Shown here in pieces: positions 52,042 to 64,000 of a DNA stretch of 64,000 nucleotides. The stretch covers positions 103,718 through 167,717 of the forward strand of contig CALEDJ010000029.1 of NCBI GenBank assembly GCA_937951485.1. The letters run 5' to 3'. Position 1 is the stretch's first letter; every line of letters begins with the position of its first letter. The notes beneath the pieces were generated by a model. That model was not told the origin of the DNA, did not search any database, and saw only the letters and a program-made list of their open reading frames with translations. The translations under genes and the position numbers were made by a program. Origin of the DNA: an uncultured bacterium (GTDB lineage: Bacteria > Hydrogenedentota > Hydrogenedentia > Hydrogenedentales > CAILVY01).

Positions 52042-52563
52042 ATGCTTTGCCAGAAATGCCATAAGAACCTTGCCACGGTGCGGTATGCGGAGGTTGTGGA
52101 CGGGAAGGTGACGGAGCAGCACCTGTGCGGCGAGTGCCTGAAGCAGCACCAGCAGAACGCCGCCAAGGGTTTTGAACTGGCCGGCCCGGCCCCGATGTTG
52201 CGGCGTCCCCGTCAGGAGCGCGCCGCGCGCGACGTGGTGCGCACAGAGAAGGCGTGCCCGTCGTGCGGGGCATTGTTGAGCCGGGTGACGGATTCGGGCA
52301 AGGCGGGCTGCAGCGCGTGCTATGAACATTTCGGCAGCCAGATTGAGTCGCTGCTGGAGGGCATGCACCGGGCGTTGCGGCACAACGGCAAGGTATTCCG
52401 GCTGGACGATACCCGCGCCCGGTTGCGCGGGGATTTGCAGACGAAGCGCGCGCTGTTGCGCAGCGCGCTGCGCACCGAGAACTACGAGGAGGCGGCGCGG
52501 CTCCGCGACGAAATCCGCTGCCTCGAACAAGGACTGCACATTTCGGAATCCGGAGCGGAATAG
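52042..52563 (+). CDS. mcsA: McsA-like zinc-finger/UVR-motif protein
   Basis: A 173-residue protein of the McsA family, which activates the McsB kinase in Gram-positive bacteria. Zinc-finger cysteine pairs are visible at MLCQKCHK, LCGECLK, CPSCG and CSACY. The C-terminal helix (about residues 135-165) is a UVR motif (LRTENYEEAARLRDEIRCLE), which binds ClpC or UvrB-like partners. It starts the mcsA-mcsB-clpC-bamA run; the stop is 3 nt from mcsB. ctsR, the usual first gene in Firmicutes, is absent upstream. Confidence 0.88.
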   Translation: MLCQKCHKNLATVRYAEVVDGKVTEQHLCGECLKQHQQNAAKGFELAGPAPMLRRPRQERAARDVVRTEKACPSCGALLSRVTDSGKAGCSACYEHFGSQIESLLEGMHRALRHNGKVFRLDDTRARLRGDLQTKRALLRSALRTENYEEAARLRDEIRCLEQGLHISESGAE

Positions 52564-52566
52564 GCC

Positions 52567-53745
52567 ATGGTCGTGGACACATTGCTGGACAAAATTCCCG
52601 CCTGGCTTGCGGAAGAAAGCGGCGCGGATACCTCGGTGGTGCTGGCCACGCAGTGCACCCTTGTGCGTAATCTGGCCGATTTTCCATTTCCGCACCGTTG
52701 CAGCGATGAAGACCGGCACGCTGTGGAAACGCGCGTGGTGGCCACGATGGACTCCCTTAACCTGCTCTCTTCGGGGCGCTACTATTCCCTGCAGGAATTA
52801 TCCGGCAAAGAGCAGCGTTTCCTGGCGGAACGCCGCCTGATCACCCAGGACATGATCGGCGCCAAGGGCGCGCATGGGGTGTATGTGGGGGAAGACCAGG
52901 GCCTGTCCCTCATGGTGAACAGCGAAGACCACCTGTGCATCAGGGCGATTCGCGCGGGCGCACAGCCACAGGAGGCGTGGGCGCAGGTGAACCTGCTGGA
53001 CGACACGCTGGCGGGTACGCTCGATTTCGCCTATGATGAGCGCCTGGGATTTCTCAGCGCCGCCCTGGCGCATGTGGGCACCGGATTGAAGATATCGGCA
53101 ATCCTTCACCTGCCGGCCCTGTCCATCGGCAATCGCCTGGGCGAGGCCGCCCGCATGGTGTCCGCCCAGCACATGGTTCTGGCGGGCATGAAGACAAGCG
53201 GGCCGATACGCCGGTTGTCGGCGGCGGAATCGGGCGGCGGGCGCGCGCGGGCCTTCTCCGAATATGAGGACACCTCCGCGCAGTCCTTGTTGACAGACGT
53301 TGACGGCGCGATCGCGGCGCCGCTGAACGAATCGGCGGGCGACCTGTTCTTTATCGTAAACCAAAGCACGCTGGGCTTTTCCGAAGAGGAAATCGCTTTT
53401 CAGGCGCGGCAGGCGTGCGCGGATGTCGCGGAATTGGAGAAGAACGCCCGGGAAGAACTGCTGCGGGATATTCCGCGCGGCATTGAAGACCAGGCGGGCC
53501 GCGCGCGCGGCATCGCCGGCGGCGCGCGACTGTTGAGTTTTCCGGAAGCCCTCTCGTTGTTGAGCGGCATCCGTTTCGGCTGTAATATGGGCATCATACG
53601 GGATGTCAGCATCCTGACTTTGAACGAACTTATGCTCTCCGCGCAAGGCGCGCACCTGGAACTGGCGCGCGGCCACGACGGGGACGCGTTAACCTTGAGC
53701 ATGGAACGGGCGGACTTGTTCCGCCGCGCATTTTCGGGTGCATGA
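52567..53745 (+). CDS. mcsB: McsB-like ATP:guanido phosphotransferase homologue, probable pseudokinase
   Basis: A 392-residue protein that aligns along its length with McsB, the protein-arginine kinase. Shared features: the N-terminal VVLATQCTLVRNLADFPFP, ERRLITQDMIG, LSLMVNSEDHLCIRAI, TLDFAYDERLGFLSAALAHV, GTGLKISAILHLPAL and the C-terminal IRFGCNMGIIRDVSILTLNE. Against the B. subtilis pattern the arginines that hold ATP phosphates are replaced: SSRIR reads ATQCT (Gln29, Thr31), EDHIR reads EDHLC (Cys124), GTGLR reads GTGLK (Lys175), and the VRG loop before GEGSEA is lost. NEED reads NSED (Glu120 kept). It therefore probably cannot phosphorylate, and may serve as a scaffold or adaptor between McsA and ClpC. 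That last step is inference. Confidence 0.87.
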   Translation: MVVDTLLDKIPAWLAEESGADTSVVLATQCTLVRNLADFPFPHRCSDEDRHAVETRVVATMDSLNLLSSGRYYSLQELSGKEQRFLAERRLITQDMIGAKGAHGVYVGEDQGLSLMVNSEDHLCIRAIRAGAQPQEAWAQVNLLDDTLAGTLDFAYDERLGFLSAALAHVGTGLKISAILHLPALSIGNRLGEAARMVSAQHMVLAGMKTSGPIRRLSAAESGGGRARAFSEYEDTSAQSLLTDVDGAIAAPLNESAGDLFFIVNQSTLGFSEEEIAFQARQACADVAELEKNAREELLRDIPRGIEDQAGRARGIAGGARLLSFPEALSLLSGIRFGCNMGIIRDVSILTLNELMLSAQGAHLELARGHDGDALTLSMERADLFRRAFSGA

Positions 53746-53793
53746 GGCGCGGCTTTGTAAGGCGCTTCGCACCCGCAGGAAAGTGATGGACAA

Positions 53794-56262
53794 ATGTGGG
53801 AACGGTTTACAGAACGCGCAAAGCACGTGGTGCACACGGCGCGCGAGGAAGCGACGCGCCTGGGCAGCGAATATGTGCGGACCGAACATATCCTCCTGGG
53901 GCTGTGTCGCGAGACGGAAGGCATCGCCGCGCGCGCGCTCAGCAATCTCGGCATTGACACCGAGACCCTGGCAAATGAAATAGAACAGCAGATGCAGATG
54001 CAGACAGGCGCCGCCCCGGTTTCGGGCGACGACATCGCGTTCACGCCCCGCGCCAAGAAGGTGCTTGAACTGGCGGTTGAAGAGGCGCGCCGATTCAACC
54101 ACAGTTACATCGGCACGGAGCACATTCTGCTCGGTCTGCTCAAAGAAGGCGAGGGTATCGCCGCCAAGGTGCTCCAGGACATGAAAATTGACCTTGGGCG
54201 CATCCAGGCGGAGATCATCCGCCTGCTCGGCGACCAGGGCCGCAGCGGTCCCGGGGGCGAAGCGCAGGCGGGCAGAAAATCACAAACGCCCGCCCTCGAC
54301 GCCTTCGGTCGCGACCTCACCCAACTTGCCAGGGAAGGCAAACTCGACCCGGTCATCGGCCGCGAGGCCGAAATTGAACGGGTTATCCAGATTCTGAGCC
54401 GCCGCACCAAGAACAACCCCGTCCTGATTGGCGAGGCGGGTGTCGGCAAGACCGCCATCGTCGAAGGTCTGGCGCAGGCCATCGTCAAGGGCGACGTGCC
54501 CGACCTGCTGCTGCGCCGCCGCGTGCTGACGCTGGACCTCGCCGGCATCGTCGCGGGCACCAAATATCGCGGCCAGTTTGAAGAGCGCCTGAAATCCGTC
54601 ATGAAGGAAATCCGCCGCGCCGACAACATCATCCTGTTCATTGACGAATTGCACACCATTGTGGGCGCGGGCGCCGCCGAAGGGGCCGTGGATGCGGCCA
54701 ACATGCTCAAGCCCTCCCTCGCCCGGGGCGAACTCCAGTGCATTGGCGCCACCACCATGGACGAATACCGCAAGTACATCGAAAAGGATGCGGCGCTTGC
54801 GCGTCGTTTCCAAACCATTCTCGTGGATGCGCCCAGCGTTGATCAGACCATCGAAATCATCCAGGGGCTGCGCGACAAATACGAGGCCCACCACCGCGTC
54901 AAATTTTCCGACGCCGCCGTCATCGCCGCCGCCCGACTCTCCAACCAGTACATTACCGACCGTTTTCTGCCGGACAAGGCGGTGGATGTCATTGATGAGG
55001 CCGGCAGCCGCGCCCGCCTGAAGATCACCACGCGCCCCCCCGAACTGAAGGAAATCGAGCAGCAAATCGCACAGATCACCCAGGAAAAAGAAGCGGCCAT
55101 CCGCCGCCAGGAGTACGAGAAAGCCGCGAGCCTGCGCGATAAGGAACGGACGCAGATAGCCCGGCTCGAAGAGAAAAAACGGGAATGGGAAAGACAACGC
55201 GATTCTTCCGAGACCGTCGTTACCGAGGAGGATATCGCCTATATTGTGTCCAAGTGGACCGGCATCCCGCTCACCAAACTGGAGGAGCAGGAATCGCAGC
55301 GGCTGCTGCGCATGCGCGAGGAACTGCACCGCACCGTCATCGGCCAGGAAGAGGCCATTGACGCGATTACGCGCGCCATTCAGCGTTCGCGTTCCGGTTT
55401 GCGCAGCCCCAACCGGCCCGTCGGTTCCTTCCTGCTGCTGGGGCCGACCGGCGTCGGCAAGACCCTGCTCGCCAAGGCGCTCGCCTCATTCCTCTTCGGC
55501 AACGAAGAGGCGCTCATCACCATTGACATGTCCGAGTATATGGAGAAGTTTTCTGTTTCCCGTCTGATGGGCGCCCCGCCGGGATACGTCGGCTACAACG
55601 AAGGCGGCCAACTCACCGAACAGGTGCGCCGCCGGCCGTACTCCGTGGTCCTTTTCGATGAAATCGAAAAGGCGCATCCCGATGTCTTCAACGCCCTGCT
55701 CCAAGTGCTCGAAGAAGGCCAGATGACCGACGCCACCGGACGCCGCGTGGACTTCCGCAACACGGTGGTCGTCATGACCAGCAATGTCGGGGCGCGGCGC
55801 ATCGGGCGCAACACCTCGCTCGGTTTTCAGCGCGACGACGCGGGCGAACAATACGCCCGGATGAAGGACCGTGTCATGGAGGAGGCGAAAAAGACCTTCA
55901 ACCCTGAATTCCTGAACCGGGTGGACGAAGTGCTGGTTTTCCACCGGCTCACCGAGGAGCAATTGCTGCAAATTGTTGACATTCAAGTGAAGGAAGTGAT
56001 AGATCGAGTGACCGAAAAGAGTTTTCAGCTGGAACTCACCCAGGATGCCAAGCAATTTCTCCTGCGCACAGGGAGCAGCGAGGAATATGGGGCACGGCCG
56101 CTGCGGCGAGCGGTCCAGCAATACATCGAGGACCCTCTTGCGGAATTACTTTTGAGGGGCGACCTCGAATCGGGCGCAAGGATCGAGGTATGTCCTTCAG
56201 AATCCGGGGAAAGACTCGAATTCAAAGTGACCGCGAGAACTGCGGAAGGGGTCGCCATTTGA
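53794..56262 (+). CDS. clpC: ClpC-type AAA+ unfoldase
   Basis: An 822-residue Hsp100 unfoldase that feeds substrates to ClpP. The double Clp-N domain (1-145) has [20 protein letters not shown] and [20 protein letters not shown]. The first AAA+ domain has Walker [14 protein letters not shown] (about 213) and Walker [14 protein letters not shown]. The UVR-bearing middle domain (about 425-465) reads [19 protein letters not shown]. The second AAA+ domain has [14 protein letters not shown] (about 550) and [20 protein letters not shown]. The UVR motif marks it as ClpC rather than ClpB. It follows mcsB by 48 nt, and its stop overlaps the bamA start. Confidence 0.97.
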
Positions 56263-58559
56263 GACATATCATTATCGGGTTCGCCGTCGTGGCGGGGGTG
56301 TGTGCGTTTCCCGCGCATGCGCAGACCGCCGTCAATGACGCGGTGCATGCCGTGGATATCCGCGGCCTGGAACGAATCAGCGAGCAGGCCGTCCGGGCCA
56401 AACTGGAAGTGCAGCCCGGCCAGGCCTTCAATCCCCGCGCGGTGGCCCGCGATATCCGGCGCATCCACGAAATGGGTTTCTTCGACAACATCCGGGCCGA
56501 GGCCGCCCAGGAACCGCAGGGGATTCGCCTGATATACAGCGTCGAAGAAAAGCAGGTTATTGATTCCATTCGTATCATGGGCAACAAGTGGGTCCGCGCC
56601 CGGCGCATCCGGGGCGTGCTTACCATGCGCGAGGGGCAATCCTTCGCGCCGGATGCCTACAACGAGGAACTTGACGCCATCCTGGATCTCTACGAAAGCC
56701 GCGGATTCGCGAATGCCACCGTGGACCTGGCGGTGGAAAAAGTCGGGCCTTCCCGTGTGCGACTGGTTTACATGATTCAGGAAAACCGGAGGGCCCGCAT
56801 CAGCAGGATCGAGTTTGAGGGCAATGAGAAAGTCAAAGACCGGGTGCTGCGCAGGGTCATGAAAACCCGGCGCGCTTTCTGGCTGCTGGGCGGCAAATTC
56901 CAGCAAGACCGCTTCGAAACCGATCTCGACAACATATTGGATGAATATGGAAACCGCGGTCACCTGGAAGCCCGGATTCCGCATACCGAGATCAGTTACG
57001 GGAAAAAGGGCAAGCGCATGTACATCACTGTGCACCTTGCCGAAGGCCCCGTGTATCACGTCGAATCGCTGGGCGTCGCCAACAATGAAGTCTATGACAC
57101 CGACGAAATCCTGAATATCGTCCGGGTTCACGAAGGCGATGTCCACAACAAGGGTCAGGTGGCGCGCGATGCCGAACTGGCGACGAAAGGCTACCAGGAC
57201 AGCGGCTATGTCAATGCCGTCGTGACGCCGCAGGTCACCCTGGACCGCGACAAGAAGACCACCCATATCGTGCACAATGTCAGCGAGGGGGAATTGAAGT
57301 ATGTGCGCGAAATCAAAATTACGGGCAATGAAATAACAAAAGACGAAATCATCCGCCGCGAGATGCTGCTGCGCCCGGGCGACCGCTACGACGGCGCGCT
57401 GGTGCAGGCCAGCCAGCGCCGACTTGAAAACACCCAGTTTTTCCGGCAGGTCCGGCTCACCCTCGCCGATATCGAAGACTACGACCTTTTTACTGATCTC
57501 ATGGTGGACGTTGAGGAGGGCAAGACGGGCGCCTTCAACTTCGGCGCGGGTTACAGCACCGATGAGGGTGTCGGTGGGTTCGCCGAACTGCGCCTGAATA
57601 ATTTCGATATCGCGAATCCGCCACGCTTTCACGGCGCGGGGCAGGAATTGCGTATGAAACTGAACATCGGCGATATCCGCAGCAACTACGCGATCAGTTT
57701 CACCGAGCCTGAATTTCTCGGTTATCCCTTTGCCATGGGATTCGACCTGTTCAACGATTCCTACCGGGTGCGCGGCGGCGCCAACTACACCGAAGAGCAA
57801 CTTGGCGGACAACTTCGCTTCGGCAAGCAATTGTCGCCCCTGATGACCCTGCGCGGAAGACTGCGCATCGCCGAGGAGACCAACCGGGGGCTTCCGGAAT
57901 TCGGTCATCCCGCGTTGCGCAGCCAGAGCGGTTCGTTCCTCAACGTCAGCACCGGCTGGGAAATCGAACGCAATACCCTCGATAACCGGCGCGACCCCAC
58001 CCGGGGCGCCGTGCACATCCTGAGCACGGAACTCGCCGGATTCGGCGGGGATTACGAATATGTGAAGTTTGAACATGACTCCACATGGTATCGCGCCTTT
58101 GGCGGGAAGGAGCGGTGGGTTTTCTCCGCTCGTATTCGCGAGGGGCTGGTCACCGCCTATGGCAGCAATGATTCCGTGCCGCTCCAGGCGCGGCTCTACG
58201 CCGGCGGGGCAGCCACGGTGCGCGGCTACAAAATCCGCGACATCGGCCCCAAGGCCCGCGAATACATTCTCTTCGGCGACAAATTCGCCCTTGGCGGCAA
58301 CATTAATGCCATCACCAACCTTGAAATGAAGTACAAAATCACCAAGATGCTGCGGCTCTATGGCTTCTTCGATGCCGGCGGCGTGTGGGAATACTTCAAG
58401 GATATCGATCCCGGCGATGTCCGATGCAGCGTCGGCCTCGGATTTGGCGTGGACGTGCCGCGGCTCGGCCCCATCCGCGTGGATTACGGTTTCCCGCTCA
58501 ATCCCGACAAAGACCAAGGATCCGGACGGCTCCACCTCATGACCGGATTCCGGTTCTAA
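56259..58559 (+). CDS. bamA: Outer membrane protein assembly factor BamA
   Basis: A 766-residue Omp85 protein that inserts beta-barrels into the outer membrane. A signal peptide (HIIIGFAVVAGVCAFPAHAQ) is followed by five POTRA domains (AVDIRGLERISEQAVRAKLE; DSIRIMGNKWVRARRIRGVL; RISRIEFEGNEKVKDRVLRR; HVESLGVANNEVYDTDEILN; YVREIKITGNEITKDEIIRR) and the barrel from about residue 430. Loop 6 has the conserved VRGYKIRDIGP, and the last strands end in LHLMTGFRF with a terminal Phe. The TTG at 56259 overlaps the clpC stop (TTGA) and has GGAAGGGG at good spacing; ATG 56190 inside clpC is the alternative. Its presence shows a diderm envelope. Confidence 0.95.
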   Translation: MRHIIIGFAVVAGVCAFPAHAQTAVNDAVHAVDIRGLERISEQAVRAKLEVQPGQAFNPRAVARDIRRIHEMGFFDNIRAEAAQEPQGIRLIYSVEEKQVIDSIRIMGNKWVRARRIRGVLTMREGQSFAPDAYNEELDAILDLYESRGFANATVDLAVEKVGPSRVRLVYMIQENRRARISRIEFEGNEKVKDRVLRRVMKTRRAFWLLGGKFQQDRFETDLDNILDEYGNRGHLEARIPHTEISYGKKGKRMYITVHLAEGPVYHVESLGVANNEVYDTDEILNIVRVHEGDVHNKGQVARDAELATKGYQDSGYVNAVVTPQVTLDRDKKTTHIVHNVSEGELKYVREIKITGNEITKDEIIRREMLLRPGDRYDGALVQASQRRLENTQFFRQVRLTLADIEDYDLFTDLMVDVEEGKTGAFNFGAGYSTDEGVGGFAELRLNNFDIANPPRFHGAGQELRMKLNIGDIRSNYAISFTEPEFLGYPFAMGFDLFNDSYRVRGGANYTEEQLGGQLRFGKQLSPLMTLRGRLRIAEETNRGLPEFGHPALRSQSGSFLNVSTGWEIERNTLDNRRDPTRGAVHILSTELAGFGGDYEYVKFEHDSTWYRAFGGKERWVFSARIREGLVTAYGSNDSVPLQARLYAGGAATVRGYKIRDIGPKAREYILFGDKFALGGNINAITNLEMKYKITKMLRLYGFFDAGGVWEYFKDIDPGDVRCSVGLGFGVDVPRLGPIRVDYGFPLNPDKDQGSGRLHLMTGFRF

Positions 58560-58870
58560 GTCGTGCCGCACATCAGCCCTGTCAAGGGTTCTTGAAAATC
58601 TGAAAATATATTTGTATTATTATATAATTGCTGCAATTGGCTGAGTTCCTGTGCGTCCGCCTTATGCTGCGTTCTTTGCGTAGCGCGCTTGTTGCGTATG
58701 AGATCGTCGCGCCCGATAAAAGCCCCCCCTACGCCCCCGCAGGTCCCACGAACCACATTCTTCCTTGCTTCTGCATACTGGACGCCGTCAATTTTCATAC
58801 CGAAAGTCTGACCCGTTGCGGCGGGTTGTGCAACGTATTCGGCGGGGGGTATTGATTGGCAAGCGAGACG
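58560..58870. other. AT-rich intergenic region between convergent genes
   Basis: The first part (58595-58635) is an AT-rich run unlike the flanking DNA (ATATATTTGTATTATTATAT). The rest has no repeat, terminator or gene I can support. Confidence 0.6.
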
Positions 58871-60064
58871 TCATCGGGGGACGCGCCCCAGGCGTTTCCC
58901 CAATTCGTAGAAAGCCGCGCAGTGGTCCAGCCGGGCGCGTGGCGCGAGGTTGTTGCCCTCCCTGAGGATGAAGCGTCCACCTTCGATCACGCCGGACGCC
59001 AGGATGCGCTCGGTTTCCCGAAGCAGCGGTTCGGGGCTTTCCTGGACAAAGAGGGGGACGGGGGGACCGCCGAGAATAAGTGTATCGGGGCCGAGTTCGC
59101 GGCGGGCCAGGGCGAAGTCAAAGGGGAAGCCGGTATCGAAGGCAACCACGCCGAGTTCTTCGTGGATGATTTTGAAATGACGCTGCGCGTTGCCGCAAAG
59201 ATGCATGGATCGTCCTTTTCCCGTGCCAAAAGCATCAAAAAGGCGGCGATGATGGGGGAGGACGAATTCGCGGTACTGGTCCGTGGAAAGCATCTGGATG
59301 GAGTCGTCGGCGGAACCGAAATCGTCCTGTTTGGCGGGGCGGCCAAAGCGTTCGCGCCATGCGGTCATGCGGCGGATAATCCCTTCGCTGAGGAAATCCA
59401 GCAGTTCACGGGCGTAGTCGGAATCCATCAGCAGGTCGGTGCAAAGTCCCGCAGGCCCGCGCAGGCATGCGGCGGTGGTAAAAACGCCATCGGTCCCCAT
59501 GAATGGCATTTGGTCCATGAGAACCACCGGACGCCCCAGAAAGGTCCATCCGGCGTTGGTTTTTTCCTGGAAGTATTCCAGAAATGCGAGCGCGCGCTCG
59601 GGCCATTCTCCTGAAAAAGGCTCCGGAAGCCCGCGATCAAGAATCATCCGTTTATTGTCGTCGTTCAGAATCGGTACGGCGTCCGGAACCTGGTCCTGTC
59701 GGAACTCGACTGCGCCGCCGAAATACGCTGCATCATAGAAGTTCTGGAAATCCACCCACATCATCCATTGATCGGGCAGGCCTTTCTCATGGTCTCCGGG
59801 CAGAAGGTAGCGCACCCAATACTGAAACTCCAGGATGGTTTCGCCCATCACTTCGGGGTCATGCATGAACGCTTCATAGGTGATGCCCTTTGTATTGTAT
59901 GCAGGGTCCAACAGAAGCATGCGCGCATTGACAATGAGTCGCACGGGAACCCGATCATGCGTGTTGTTGCGGAACGCCTCCTCAAGCGCGCGGACTTCCT
60001 CGTTGTGTTGTGTAAAGTCGCAACTCAGAAGGTCGGGTATATCGAAAAGAAAGCCATCCGGCAT
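58871..60064 (-). CDS. Uroporphyrinogen decarboxylase (URO-D) family protein
   Basis: A 397-residue URO-D-fold protein. GGAGGA lies 8 nt before ATG 60064. The barrel is recognisable from GRPVVLMDQMPFMGTDGVFT, KQDDFGSADDSIQMLSTDQY, FVLPHHRRLFDAFGTGKGRS, MHLCGNAQRHFKIIHEELGV and DTLILGGPPVPLF. The N-terminal arginine motif of true HemE enzymes is absent. MHLCGN with FDTGFPFDFALARRELG is more like MtaA/CmuA-type methyltransferases and the many uncharacterised URO-D paralogues of Planctomycetes and related groups, which handle methyl transfer or corrinoids. A zinc site may use the His and Cys of MHLCGN. It stands alone. Confidence 0.82.
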   Translation of the reverse strand: MPDGFLFDIPDLLSCDFTQHNEEVRALEEAFRNNTHDRVPVRLIVNARMLLLDPAYNTKGITYEAFMHDPEVMGETILEFQYWVRYLLPGDHEKGLPDQWMMWVDFQNFYDAAYFGGAVEFRQDQVPDAVPILNDDNKRMILDRGLPEPFSGEWPERALAFLEYFQEKTNAGWTFLGRPVVLMDQMPFMGTDGVFTTAACLRGPAGLCTDLLMDSDYARELLDFLSEGIIRRMTAWRERFGRPAKQDDFGSADDSIQMLSTDQYREFVLPHHRRLFDAFGTGKGRSMHLCGNAQRHFKIIHEELGVVAFDTGFPFDFALARRELGPDTLILGGPPVPLFVQESPEPLLRETERILASGVIEGGRFILREGNNLAPRARLDHCAAFYELGKRLGRVPR

Positions 60065-60278: not shown

Positions 60279-60638
60279 ATGAAACTCGGCGAATTGGCCC
60301 TGAAAATCGGGGCGCGGATGCTTGTCGGCGGTCCGGCGGTGCGGAAGGAAATTACGCGCGTGTGCGCGGGCGACCGGATGAGCGACCTGCTGGGCGAGGC
60401 GGGCGACGGCACGTTGCTGGTGACGCATGTCACGAACGTTGGATTGATGCGCCTGCTGGAACTGATGGATGTGCCGGGGATTTGCCTCGTCAAAGGGGCG
60501 GAACCGGATGACGCGGTGTTGGAAACGGCAAAGTCATGCGGGGCGGCGCTGATGGTGTCGCGGGAAGGGATGTTCGAAACCTGCGGCCGCATTTACCTGG
60601 CAATGTACGCCGATGCTCGAGGGCAGGGTCGCGAATGA
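60279..60638 (+). CDS. DRTGG-domain protein
   Basis: A 119-residue single-domain protein. The start at ATG 60279 gives KLGELALKIGARMLVGGPAV, then ITRVCAGDRMSDLLGEAGDG, TLLVTHVTNVGLMRLLELMD and PGICLVKGAEPDDAVLETAK. This is the DRTGG fold, found in regulators next to iron-only hydrogenase genes of clostridia and Thermotogae; its ligand is not known. Its stop overlaps the start of the next gene by 4 nt (ATGA), so the two products are probably made together. Confidence 0.8.
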   Translation: MKLGELALKIGARMLVGGPAVRKEITRVCAGDRMSDLLGEAGDGTLLVTHVTNVGLMRLLELMDVPGICLVKGAEPDDAVLETAKSCGAALMVSREGMFETCGRIYLAMYADARGQGRE

Positions 60639-62182
60639 ACAGCGCCGTTTATGAGATAGAAGGGGGGAATTACGAGAAAGGGGGCGAAGCCTCGAAAAAA
60701 CTGAAGGAAATGCTCAAGCGCCTTGGCGCGGACCCGAAGGCCGTGCGCCGGGCCATGATCGCAGCGTTTGAAGCGGAGATGAACGTCGTGATACACGCCG
60801 GGGGCGGCGTGATGAAAGTGGCCGTAACCCCCGAGCAGGTGGATGTTGCGGTGATTGACGAGGGGCCTGGCATCGCTGATATCCCCCTCGCGCTGACAGA
60901 GGGGTATTCGACCGCCCCCCCCGAAGCGCGCGAATTGGGTTTCGGCGCGGGCATGGGACTGCCCAACATCCGCAAGAATACAGACCGCTTCAGCATTCAG
61001 TCGGAGCCGGGGAGGGGCGCGCACCTGCGATTTTCGATCCGGCTGCATGCGCAGGAGGCCGCCCCCGCCGACACGATTTTCCTCACGGTCCGGGAGGAAT
61101 GCTGCCGCCAATCGCTGCGCTGTGTGCATGCCTGTCCGACGGGGGCCATTCGCGTGCGCAATGACCGGCCGCGCATCCTGAACCATCTGTGCGTGGATTG
61201 CACGGCATGTGCGGCGGCCTGTCCGGCCCAGGTCTTTGGCATGGCATGCCCGGATGAGATGCCGCGCATGACAGAGGGGCTTGTCCTGCTGTTGCCCGCC
61301 GCGTTTGTGGTGCAGTTTGAGCCGGCGATTGCGCCGGCGACCATATTGCAGGCGCTGAACGGTCTGGGCTTCACCCAGGTGCGCCTCGTTTCGGAATGGG
61401 AAGCGGCGCTGCGCGCGGCGGTCGTCCAATACGCCGCGCAGCACCCGGTGATCCGCCCCATTCTTTCGCCGGTCTGCCCCGCCGTGGTCAACCTGGTCCG
61501 CCTGCGGTTCCCGTCGTTGCTGGGCCATCTGGCGCCGTTTCTCTCGCCGCTCGAAGCGGCGCGGGAAAACCTGACAGCCCCCCATGTGGTTTTTGTTCCT
61601 GCGTGCCCGGCGCATGCGGGCCTTCTGCGGGACCCCAGCGTCATGTCGCGGATTGACCTGATTTCCCCCACGGCGCTCACAGAAGCCATCCGGCCCGCGT
61701 TGCGTCGGGATCGCGGGGAATCGGCAACGTCGCGTGCGCCGTCTCCGGATGATGTGCTGGAGGTGTGGGGCATCCGACGGGTTGCTGAATTTCTCGACCG
61801 TACAGAGAATGGCCTGATGCAGGACTGCGACGTGGTGGAATTGTATGCATGCGAACAGGGCTGCTTCGGCGCGCCGGTCTGGCGCGCGGACCCCTTCGCC
61901 GCGCGCCGCCGATTCGAGCGCATGCCGTCGGAAATCTTTGCTGCTTCACAGAGGCCGCGCGCCGCCGCTGTCCGGCGCATCGCCGACATACTTCCCCGTG
62001 GCGGCATCCGCCTTGACCCCGACATGCGCCAGGCGATGCAGAAACTGGCGGAAATTGACGCAGTCGGCAAGACCCTGCCCGGTCGCGATTGCGGCGTCTG
62101 CGGCGCGCCCTCCTGCGCCGCCCTTGCCGAGGATATCGTCATGGGAAACGCCGCCCTTGCCGATTGCCCGTTCCGCCGGTAA
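60635..62182 (+). CDS. Fused anti-sigma-type ATPase, ferredoxin and [FeFe]-hydrogenase H-cluster-like protein
   Basis: A 515-residue fusion. Residues 20-138 are an RsbW-like HATPase: N box AAFEAEMNVVIH (Asn50), G1 VIDEGPGI (Asp75) and G2 GFGAGMGLPNI. Residues 150-205 hold two iron-sulfur motifs: a modified C157-x5-C163-x3-C167 and a standard C186-x2-C189-x2-C192-x3-C196. Residues 215-425 resemble the hydrogenase large subunit. Cys281 lies in SPVCPAVVNLV, Cys324 in VPACPAHAG, and Cys406 and Cys410 in LYACEQGCFGAP, matching the L1, L2 and L3 cysteines that hold the H-cluster. The end (C486-x2-C489-x4-C494 to C511) is another [4Fe-4S] motif. Known loci encode the ATPase and the hydrogenase-like protein separately. 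A redox or hydrogen sensor is likely rather than a catalytic hydrogenase. Confidence 0.83.
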   Translation: MNSAVYEIEGGNYEKGGEASKKLKEMLKRLGADPKAVRRAMIAAFEAEMNVVIHAGGGVMKVAVTPEQVDVAVIDEGPGIADIPLALTEGYSTAPPEARELGFGAGMGLPNIRKNTDRFSIQSEPGRGAHLRFSIRLHAQEAAPADTIFLTVREECCRQSLRCVHACPTGAIRVRNDRPRILNHLCVDCTACAAACPAQVFGMACPDEMPRMTEGLVLLLPAAFVVQFEPAIAPATILQALNGLGFTQVRLVSEWEAALRAAVVQYAAQHPVIRPILSPVCPAVVNLVRLRFPSLLGHLAPFLSPLEAARENLTAPHVVFVPACPAHAGLLRDPSVMSRIDLISPTALTEAIRPALRRDRGESATSRAPSPDDVLEVWGIRRVAEFLDRTENGLMQDCDVVELYACEQGCFGAPVWRADPFAARRRFERMPSEIFAASQRPRAAAVRRIADILPRGGIRLDPDMRQAMQKLAEIDAVGKTLPGRDCGVCGAPSCAALAEDIVMGNAALADCPFRR

Positions 62183-62698: not shown

Positions 62699-64000
62699 AT
62701 GAGGAACGCGATGTGTTCTTTCCAGGGGCGAGTATGGATTGCCGTTTTTGTTGGGCTTGCCGTTGCGACGGCGGCAACAGGGCAGGGTGTTGATTTCAGC
62801 GTGAAACTGGGGGCGCAGGGCCTGCCGGGCACCGGCGTTGCGGCGCAGGCCGCAACGGAATCCCCCTCGAACGATGTGTTTATCGGCGGCGGCTGCATCA
62901 ATTATGTTCGACTGCTGCACACTCTGTTGGGATTGCTGCCGGGGGATGACATTGACGCCCTGTGTTATCAGTTCGCCCCGTTTATTGTGGATATCCCCGG
63001 CACAGAGGGGGACCCGGGTTGGGTCACCGTTGAGGGCATGCCCATCTTCTGGCATTTCTCGGTGGACCCCATGGCGAGCGGCCGGGCGCTCTCCGCCGTG
63101 AATAATGAAGTGACGACAGGGACAATGACCTGCGGCATTCCCGCGAATCCCAACGAAGCCCATGGCGACTATTTCTATTCATCAATCGCGATGATGGGAA
63201 CAAACATGCCGGGCGCGGATGAAGCCCTCCTGGGATTGCAGATTCAGGGCTTGGTGTTTCCACATCCGCATGACGACCTCAATGCCTTGGACCTGAACGC
63301 CGCACTGATAGACCGTCTGTCAGAAGACCCTCCGAAATTCCTGCAACCCGGTGACCTGTATTTTTCGTTGGCGGCCGGGTCGCCGTCGTTGATGCTGGTT
63401 GCCGGGGCGACGGAGGACGATATATTGACGCCCAACGGCGCGGGAGGTTTCCAGGTGTTCATACCGGGCGCTGCCCTGGGCATTCTACCGGGGTCCGACC
63501 TGGATGCGCTGTTCTTCGACGGGGCCGGCACGCCTTTCTTTTCCGTCAAGATTCCGATGGTTACAGCGATGCCTTTCCCAGACGCCAATCCCGGTGATAT
63601 CCTGGTCCCCGATGGTCTGTGCTTTCCCGTGGATGGCGTTGCGGACGAATTGATTCCGGCGCGGGACCTGGGATTGCTCGACATGGATCCCAAAACCCGT
63701 TACGGATTACCGCGTATTCCTGACGGGCATGATGACAATCTTGACGCCTTGGACGCGGAACTTTTGCCCATTATTGATCCTCAGGAACCCGAACCGGTGA
63801 GAGATCGGGCGTTGCCTGAAGACGGCGGAGAGGGCGAAGGTGAAGGCGAAGGTGAAGGCGAAGGCGAAGGAGAGGGCGAAATCGTTTGCTCTCCGATGCC
63901 CCTTACCCCGATTCCGCCCGGTCCGGGCGACTTTGACTTCTGTGCCGCGATGAACACCGTTTACTGTTCGCTGGAACCGCTGATGTGGCTTTTGCCGGAA
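62699..64000 (+). CDS. Secreted protein with GE linker (3' end beyond window)
   Basis: 434 codons are visible before the window edge. GGGAGG lies 8 nt before ATG 62699. A signal peptide (VWIAVFVGLAVATAATG) is followed by an acidic, glycine-rich region with repeated phrases: DDIDALCYQFAPFIVDIPG, HPHDDLNALDLNA, GSDLDALFFDGAG and DGHDDNLDALDAE. These recurring DDLDAL units suggest repeat modules. At about residue 376 the GEGEGEGEGEGEGEGEGE linker begins, after which a Pro-rich segment (SPMPLTPIPPGPG) leads off the edge. The same linker marks the secreted proteins at 24537 and 33317, but here it follows the first domain rather than the dockerin-like pair. Function unknown. Confidence 0.8.
   Translation, partial: MRNAMCSFQGRVWIAVFVGLAVATAATGQGVDFSVKLGAQGLPGTGVAAQAATESPSNDVFIGGGCINYVRLLHTLLGLLPGDDIDALCYQFAPFIVDIPGTEGDPGWVTVEGMPIFWHFSVDPMASGRALSAVNNEVTTGTMTCGIPANPNEAHGDYFYSSIAMMGTNMPGADEALLGLQIQGLVFPHPHDDLNALDLNAALIDRLSEDPPKFLQPGDLYFSLAAGSPSLMLVAGATEDDILTPNGAGGFQVFIPGAALGILPGSDLDALFFDGAGTPFFSVKIPMVTAMPFPDANPGDILVPDGLCFPVDGVADELIPARDLGLLDMDPKTRYGLPRIPDGHDDNLDALDAELLPIIDPQEPEPVRDRALPEDGGEGEGEGEGEGEGEGEGEIVCSPMPLTPIPPGPGDFDFCAAMNTVYCSLEPLMWLLPE

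Follow-up and report, generated by a model that had tools for sequence, protein, structure and literature searches.

Among the closest described systems is TamHydS of Thermoanaerobacter mathranii, a sensory [FeFe]-hydrogenase of group D, or M2e (PMC8163306, PMC13104023). TamHydS is a separate protein, active on H2, with two N-terminal [4Fe-4S] motifs, an H-domain with four cysteines and no PAS domain; it ends in the C-terminal Cx2Cx4Cx16C motif that is typical of groups C and D (PMC8163306). A histidine-kinase-like ATPase is encoded beside it, as noted by Land et al. (PMC8163306). H2 does not reduce its C-terminal cluster, which was considered an unlikely signal (PMC13104023), and the signalling route of the group-D sensory hydrogenases is an open question (PMC8163306, PMC13104023). 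The PAS-linked group-C proteins TmHydS and, in Hydrogenedentota, BfuT likewise combine a putative sensory H-domain with a C-terminal [4Fe-4S] motif, and their output is a PAS domain or a histidine kinase.

Group D is probably the ‘group C1’ of HydDB. Zheng and Huang (2024) collected 53 ‘group C1’ [FeFe]-hydrogenases from 179 Hydrogenedentota genomes and detected a HATPase_C domain in such proteins; 21 of the 53 adjoin group A3, their P1-P3 motifs were hard to find, and the main text leaves their function open (PMC11406978). Two further families resemble parts of the protein described here. The anti-sigma kinases SpoIIAB and RsbW (1til, 1l0o) share its ATPase fold and the N, G1 and G2 boxes, but it has in addition an Fe-S domain, and no conserved sigma or STAS partner is seen at its loci. 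Nar1/CIAO3 is a eukaryotic cluster carrier that has no ATPase domain; its hydrogenase-derived scaffold keeps the cluster cysteines without a catalytic H-cluster, and for Nar1 two [4Fe-4S] and one [2Fe-2S] have been reported (PMC12991071).

We analysed a stretch of 64,000 nucleotides from an uncultured member of the Hydrogenedentota, called the window in what follows, which encodes a SpoIIAB-type ATPase and a group-D HydS-like protein in one chain (Table 1). Residues 148-515 share the two N-terminal [4Fe-4S] motifs, the four-cysteine H-domain and the C-terminal motif of TamHydS, and its want of a PAS domain. The same domain combination was already reported as Hydrogenedentota group C1, at a frequency that our 17 of 68 genomes fits, so the architecture is not new. 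The main text of that report (PMC11406978) is silent on retained and lost residues, on an origin from a split ATPase-HydS pair, on the DRTGG/PHP gene cluster and on a clade that extends to other phyla. To this we add which residues are kept and which are lost, a single origin of the fusion and its presence in other phyla, its relation to the split pair and to the DRTGG/PHP cluster, and a revised view in which hydrogen sensing is unlikely.

Table 1. Features of the fusion gene and its conserved partner genes (window positions, except for the last line)
Feature	Position	Strand	Basis or remark
DRTGG1 partner gene, 119 aa	60279..60638	+	AF2 model, fold match, position upstream of fusion
Fusion gene, SpoIIAB-type ATPase + group-D HydS-like protein	60635..62182	+	ATG start, 515 aa
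GHKL/SpoIIAB-type ATPase domain, aa 1-140	60635..61054	+	Pfam, conserved boxes, structure match
Two [4Fe-4S] ferredoxin motifs, aa 148-205	61076..61249	+	Second Cys of motif 1 is Ser160
Degenerate H-domain, about aa 213-456	61271..62002	+	Pfam, alignment, structure match
L1 Cys281, preceded by Val280 at CpI Cys299 position	61475..61477	+	Alignment
L2 motif Cys324-Pro-Ala-His327	61604..61615	+	His327 in place of Lys (CpI K358 / DdH Lys237)
Missing-plug site (CpI 405-423, F417), short linker aa 357-374	61703..61756	+	Alignment, low pLDDT
L3 Cys406 and Cys410	61850..61864	+	Alignment
C-terminal [4Fe-4S] motif Cx2Cx4Cx16C (C486, C489, C494, C511)	62075..62173	+	PF04060, 1.8e-11
DRTGG2, PHP and second HATPase genes	L142:7502-9133 (own contig C46)		Rest of cluster, outside window

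An original prediction, made from the letters of the window, described a single 515-residue frame joining an ATPase, ferredoxin motifs, a hydrogenase-like domain and a C-terminal iron-sulfur motif. The open reading frame at 60635-62182 and its Pfam matches bear this out: HATPase_c_2 (18-133), Fer4_10 (154-197), Fe_hyd_lg_C above its cut-off (best stretch 223-309) and FeS PF04060 (481-513), with no match to PAS. Among the NCBIfam matches to the ATPase part is one to the anti-sigma F factor model, which scores far under the cut-off. As was claimed, the first ferredoxin motif is altered, with Ser160 in place of Cys and an extra Cys156; the change is common to just one other of the 21 fused proteins compared, and all eight ferredoxin cysteines are kept in 19 of the 21. 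The four cysteines of the C-terminal motif are invariant in the fused set.

An AlphaFold2 model built on a 58-row alignment (pLDDT 93.9, pTM 0.91) gave, at the level of folds, the structural comparison that the original prediction had proposed, and matched the CpI and DdH hydrogenases and SpoIIAB confidently. Residues 1-139 superpose on SpoIIAB 1til (VIA Z 19.6, rmsd 1.7, 133 residues) and residues about 146-456 on the hydrogenase CpI 4xdc (VIA Z 23.5, rmsd 3.7, 300 residues); the hydrogenase DdH is also matched. The sole stretch of low pLDDT, 363-368, lies at the missing-plug site. In the ATPase domain, the N box (E46/N50), G1 box (D75-G77-G79) and G2 box (G104-G106-G108) are invariant or nearly so among 96 fused and split proteins, E46/N50 included, so nucleotide binding by this domain is expected from its sequence.

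Full-length fused orthologues occur in 17 of the 68 genomes of the phylum, the window's included; the other sixteen proteins are 37-56% identical to the window's. One genome per bacterial or archaeal species was also scanned, and the best 80 loci, ordered by their likeness to the fused query so that more divergent fusions could escape, comprise 5 fused loci outside the phylum (two Phycisphaerae, three actinobacterial MAGs) and 75 split loci, where ATPase and HydS are encoded by two neighbouring genes. These searches recovered the predicted domain order in other genomes, and the split loci agree with the statement that clostridia encode the parts separately, as neighbouring genes. They also dispose of the sequencing error that might have split the gene: with 16 more full-length orthologues within the phylum and five beyond it, a frameshift or assembly artefact can be excluded.

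In a tree from a quick search, with uneven letter composition and some weak inner branches, the fused proteins make up a single clade (SH-aLRT 100) whose stem is long, at 1.43 changes per column. This clade is nested among the 75 split group-D-type HydS listed, whose assignment to group D is by architecture and gene order in a tree without TamHydS, and its sister is a set of split Synergistaceae copies. Two of the Synergistaceae HydS (L086:6469-7797 and L132:6190-7503) resemble the fused clade in having no L1-L2 insert, yet retain the L2 Lys and the Trp of the plug; they may represent an intermediate. At another locus (L025; genome G009, contig C215), a 202-aa frame joins the ATPase start through the N box to L3 and the C-terminal Fe-S motif, by in-frame internal deletion or assembly collapse.

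The four H-domain cysteines at 281, 324, 406 and 410 stand where the original prediction placed them and show no variation in the 21 fused proteins, among which mean H-domain identity is 34%. The L2 lysine, three residues after the cysteine, is found in none of the 21 (Q14 E4 H1 L1 M1, the window's protein having His327), against 74 K and one R among the 75 split relatives listed; it is also present in 6 of 6 other hydrogenases (group A/C) of the window's own genome, where three group-C copies keep the plug Phe as well. We take this lysine, Lys237 of DdH, to be equivalent to K358 of CpI. The plug segment with Phe/Trp-Gly between L2 and L3 is likewise absent from 21 of 21 fused proteins, although the lysine and plug counts are not independent events and could reflect a single inherited loss on the tree; L2-L3 spacing is 81-98 in fused versus 99-106 in split proteins. 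Split relatives keep both features that the fused proteins have lost. Lys237 of DdH salt-bridges a cyanide of the diiron site, according to one paper (PMC13321311), and F417, in the plug of CpI, touches the diiron cluster directly (PMC5954619). Residues that hydrogen-bond the [2Fe] cofactor are conserved in the sensory TmHydS (PMC10055695).

When proteins were compared at a matched ATPase identity of 0.5-0.6, H-domain identity was 0.31 in fused versus 0.41 in split proteins, while the C-terminal FeS domain showed no fall (0.55 versus 0.51). Judged from the cysteine invariance, the loss of lysine and plug, and this H-domain divergence, constraint acts on the cubane site of the fused clade but not on its diiron pocket. 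The strength of the loss pattern lies in its persistence across three phyla together with the invariant cysteines. Loss of the lysine and plug makes an intact H-cluster, and with it direct H2 sensing, unlikely in the fused clade. An apparent loss of the CN-binding Ala-Pro-Ser motif was given no weight, since P lies one column off in the fused set and the result is sensitive to alignment.

Val280 occupies the position of the proton-transfer Cys (CpI Cys299), which the original prediction took to argue for sensing over catalysis. That preference is supported, but not by the valine, since groups C and D generally lack this cysteine (PMC8163306). At L1 of the genome's own group-A hydrogenases (L001, L002 and L003) the sequence is TSCSPGW, with Ser at the usual ligand position, a state noted as common (PMC11406978).

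Position 60279 is the start of the DRTGG gene and 60635 that of the fusion gene; the two overlap by 4 nt (ATGA), as the original prediction had it. The DRTGG Pfam score of the partner is 19.1, under the cut-off of 25.2, and the literal DRTGG motif is absent (AGDRMSDLL instead). Its AF2 model (pLDDT 91.7) matches 2ioj (TM 0.80/0.79) and the DRTGG domain of 3l2b, and a DRTGG fold is predicted. This gene lies directly upstream of the fusion in 17 of 17 loci of the phylum and in all five fused loci listed outside it. The order DRTGG1-ATPase1-HydS-DRTGG2-PHP-ATPase2 is kept across Bacillota, Bacteroidota and the fused phyla, and hydrogenase-type genes are close by in many split loci. The window's genome carries this cluster in two pieces, with DRTGG2, PHP and ATPase2 on contig C46. 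A split locus of a Thermosediminibacteraceae MAG has DRTGG1 and ATPase1 as a single 269-aa frame (L072:5593-6402). Two different fusions of neighbours from one cluster suggest that DRTGG1, ATPase1 and HydS touch, and together with the kept gene order they point to a direct HydS-ATPase-DRTGG complex.

Other genes were recorded in passing. One protein with long Gly-Glu repeats (GEGEGE) is encoded near each half of the cluster, at window 62699-64000 (+) and at L142:9303-9920. A URO-D/MtaA-type methyltransferase-like gene (58871-60064, -) is divergent from the DRTGG gene. At 52042-56262 (+), mcsA-like, mcsB-like (protein arginine kinase) and clpC-like genes stand in a row, outside Bacillota; all three matches are below NCBIfam cut-offs, and that to McsB is in two stretches. 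BamA (TIGR03303, 3e-153) follows clpC at 56190-58559 (+). An 848-aa antisense ORF opposite bamA (56025-58571) is probably a GC-rich mirror frame and was given no gene call.

The original prediction of an H-cluster-like hydrogen sensor fares poorly. For the protein to be a genuine H2 sensor, the altered pocket would still have to bind [2Fe] through the L3 Cys bridge, with Gln, His or Glu replacing Lys, and H2 oxidation at the H-cluster would drive the ATPase switch. We regard this as unlikely, given that lysine and plug are lost from all 21 proteins, that the H-domain of the fused clade is relaxed and that the P1-P3 motifs were hardly findable for Zheng and Huang (PMC11406978). Pocket-residue loss is nevertheless no proof that diiron is not bound, since sensory enzymes tolerate substitutions at M353 and M497, and TamHydS and TmHydS tolerate changes in the pocket (PMC8163306, PMC10055695); TamHydS, also of group D, is catalytically active, and the invariance of the four H-domain cysteines suits a sensor as well. 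Within the phylum, 17 of the 42 genomes that hold a hydrogenase domain have the fusion, versus 0 of the 26 that lack one (Fisher p = 8e-5, kinship ignored), and although the fusion can itself match the profile, each of the 17 genomes also has a much stronger match; this co-occurrence ties the fusion to hydrogenase physiology. HydG is above cut-off in most fused genomes, and the proposed maturase check found HydG and HydF in the window's. Since the fused genomes of the phylum also carry ordinary group-A hydrogenases, maturase presence is uninformative on the fused protein, but a diiron precursor would be available wherever such hydrogenases and HydG occur together, which counts against a diiron-free reading. 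G039 and G040, two fused genomes of the phylum that are 96% complete, gave no HydG or HydF over cut-off, which speaks against a sensor, but both hold group-A HydA nonetheless and binning loss may be the reason.

Retained cysteines without an H-cluster would also suit a Nar1-like use (PMC12991071), in which the H-domain carries or hands over an Fe-S cluster, or is a sink for one, and the ATPase drives loading or release with no signalling. This we find improbable: the conserved neighbours are regulatory in type (DRTGG, PHP, HATPase) rather than Isc/Suf or hyd maturases, and the ATPase belongs with the GHKL regulatory kinases and not with the P-loop scaffold ATPases. More doubtful still is an anti-sigma kinase whose ATPase sequesters a sigma factor, its release being gated by the Fe-S part, as in SpoIIAB-SigF. 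The SpoIIAB fold and boxes, with E46 and N50, fit such a role, and the original prediction had the protein gate a sigma factor; yet among 85 proteins scanned at the loci, nearly all neighbours from fused loci, just one has sigma-70 regions and no STAS is among the 25 families listed, out of 37, whereas two kinds of DRTGG protein, a PHP protein and a second HATPase recur as partners. With no recurring sigma factor or STAS gene the anti-sigma idea is weakened, and an ATPase or kinase dependent on Fe-S state, with DRTGG, is favoured. The faster H-domain divergence and the ferredoxin cysteine lost in the window's species might suggest a decaying pseudogene, or an annotation or assembly artefact. 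We reject this as having next to no chance, because the frame is open in 22 genomes of three phyla and the four H-domain cysteines, the four C-terminal cysteines and all ATPase boxes are invariant; such conservation refutes decay.

We therefore lean, by a little, towards a group-D HydS that has lost the residues holding [2Fe] and is joined to a SpoIIAB-like ATPase, with Fe-S cluster state switching the ATPase and DRTGG as the likely partner. Computation shows the architecture, the clade, the gene order, the kept and lost residues and the fold; from these we infer that the diiron site is absent, which clusters are carried, that the ATPase is a kinase, that DRTGG is its partner and that redox or cluster status is what it reads. 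A group-D (M2e) sensory [FeFe]-hydrogenase would have been joined to the ATPase that is its operon neighbour elsewhere, and the residues holding the [2Fe] subsite would have gone from the H-domain of the fused lineage. The protein would then carry iron-sulfur clusters only: two of ferredoxin type, the first perhaps altered in the window's species, one in the four-cysteine pocket of the H-domain and one C-terminal. Oxidation or occupancy of a cluster may change a conformation that is passed to the N-terminal nucleotide-binding domain and so switch its kinase or partner-binding activity. As the C-terminal cluster of TamHydS is an unlikely signal, the ferredoxin and H-domain clusters remain the candidates. 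The likeliest direct partner would be the DRTGG protein encoded immediately upstream, and DRTGG2, PHP and ATPase2 would make up the remaining pathway.

More probably than as a direct H2 sensor, the protein would act, in analogy to eukaryotic Nar1, as a switch on a GHKL kinase that responds to redox or cluster status through [4Fe-4S] clusters only. We give an even chance to the fuller account, that a hydrogen-sensing [FeFe]-hydrogenase became a [4Fe-4S] redox switch without a diiron site, attached to a GHKL kinase; its H-domain would then have been repurposed much as in Nar1, but independently of eukaryotes. The likeness to Nar1 is one of analogy only, the fused proteins branching within bacterial group D in a tree without Nar1, and it would extend to the catalytic H-cluster only if that is indeed absent here.

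The fusion offers a single chain that lends itself to joint measurement of cluster state and of ATPase or kinase activity. If the repurposing is true, the output of a widespread group-D hydrogenase/ATPase/DRTGG system would be visible in one polypeptide. If the diiron site is truly gone, a bacterial lineage would have put an H-domain to a use that involves no hydrogen chemistry, and automatic annotation of such proteins as [FeFe]-hydrogenases would exaggerate the extent of hydrogen sensing.
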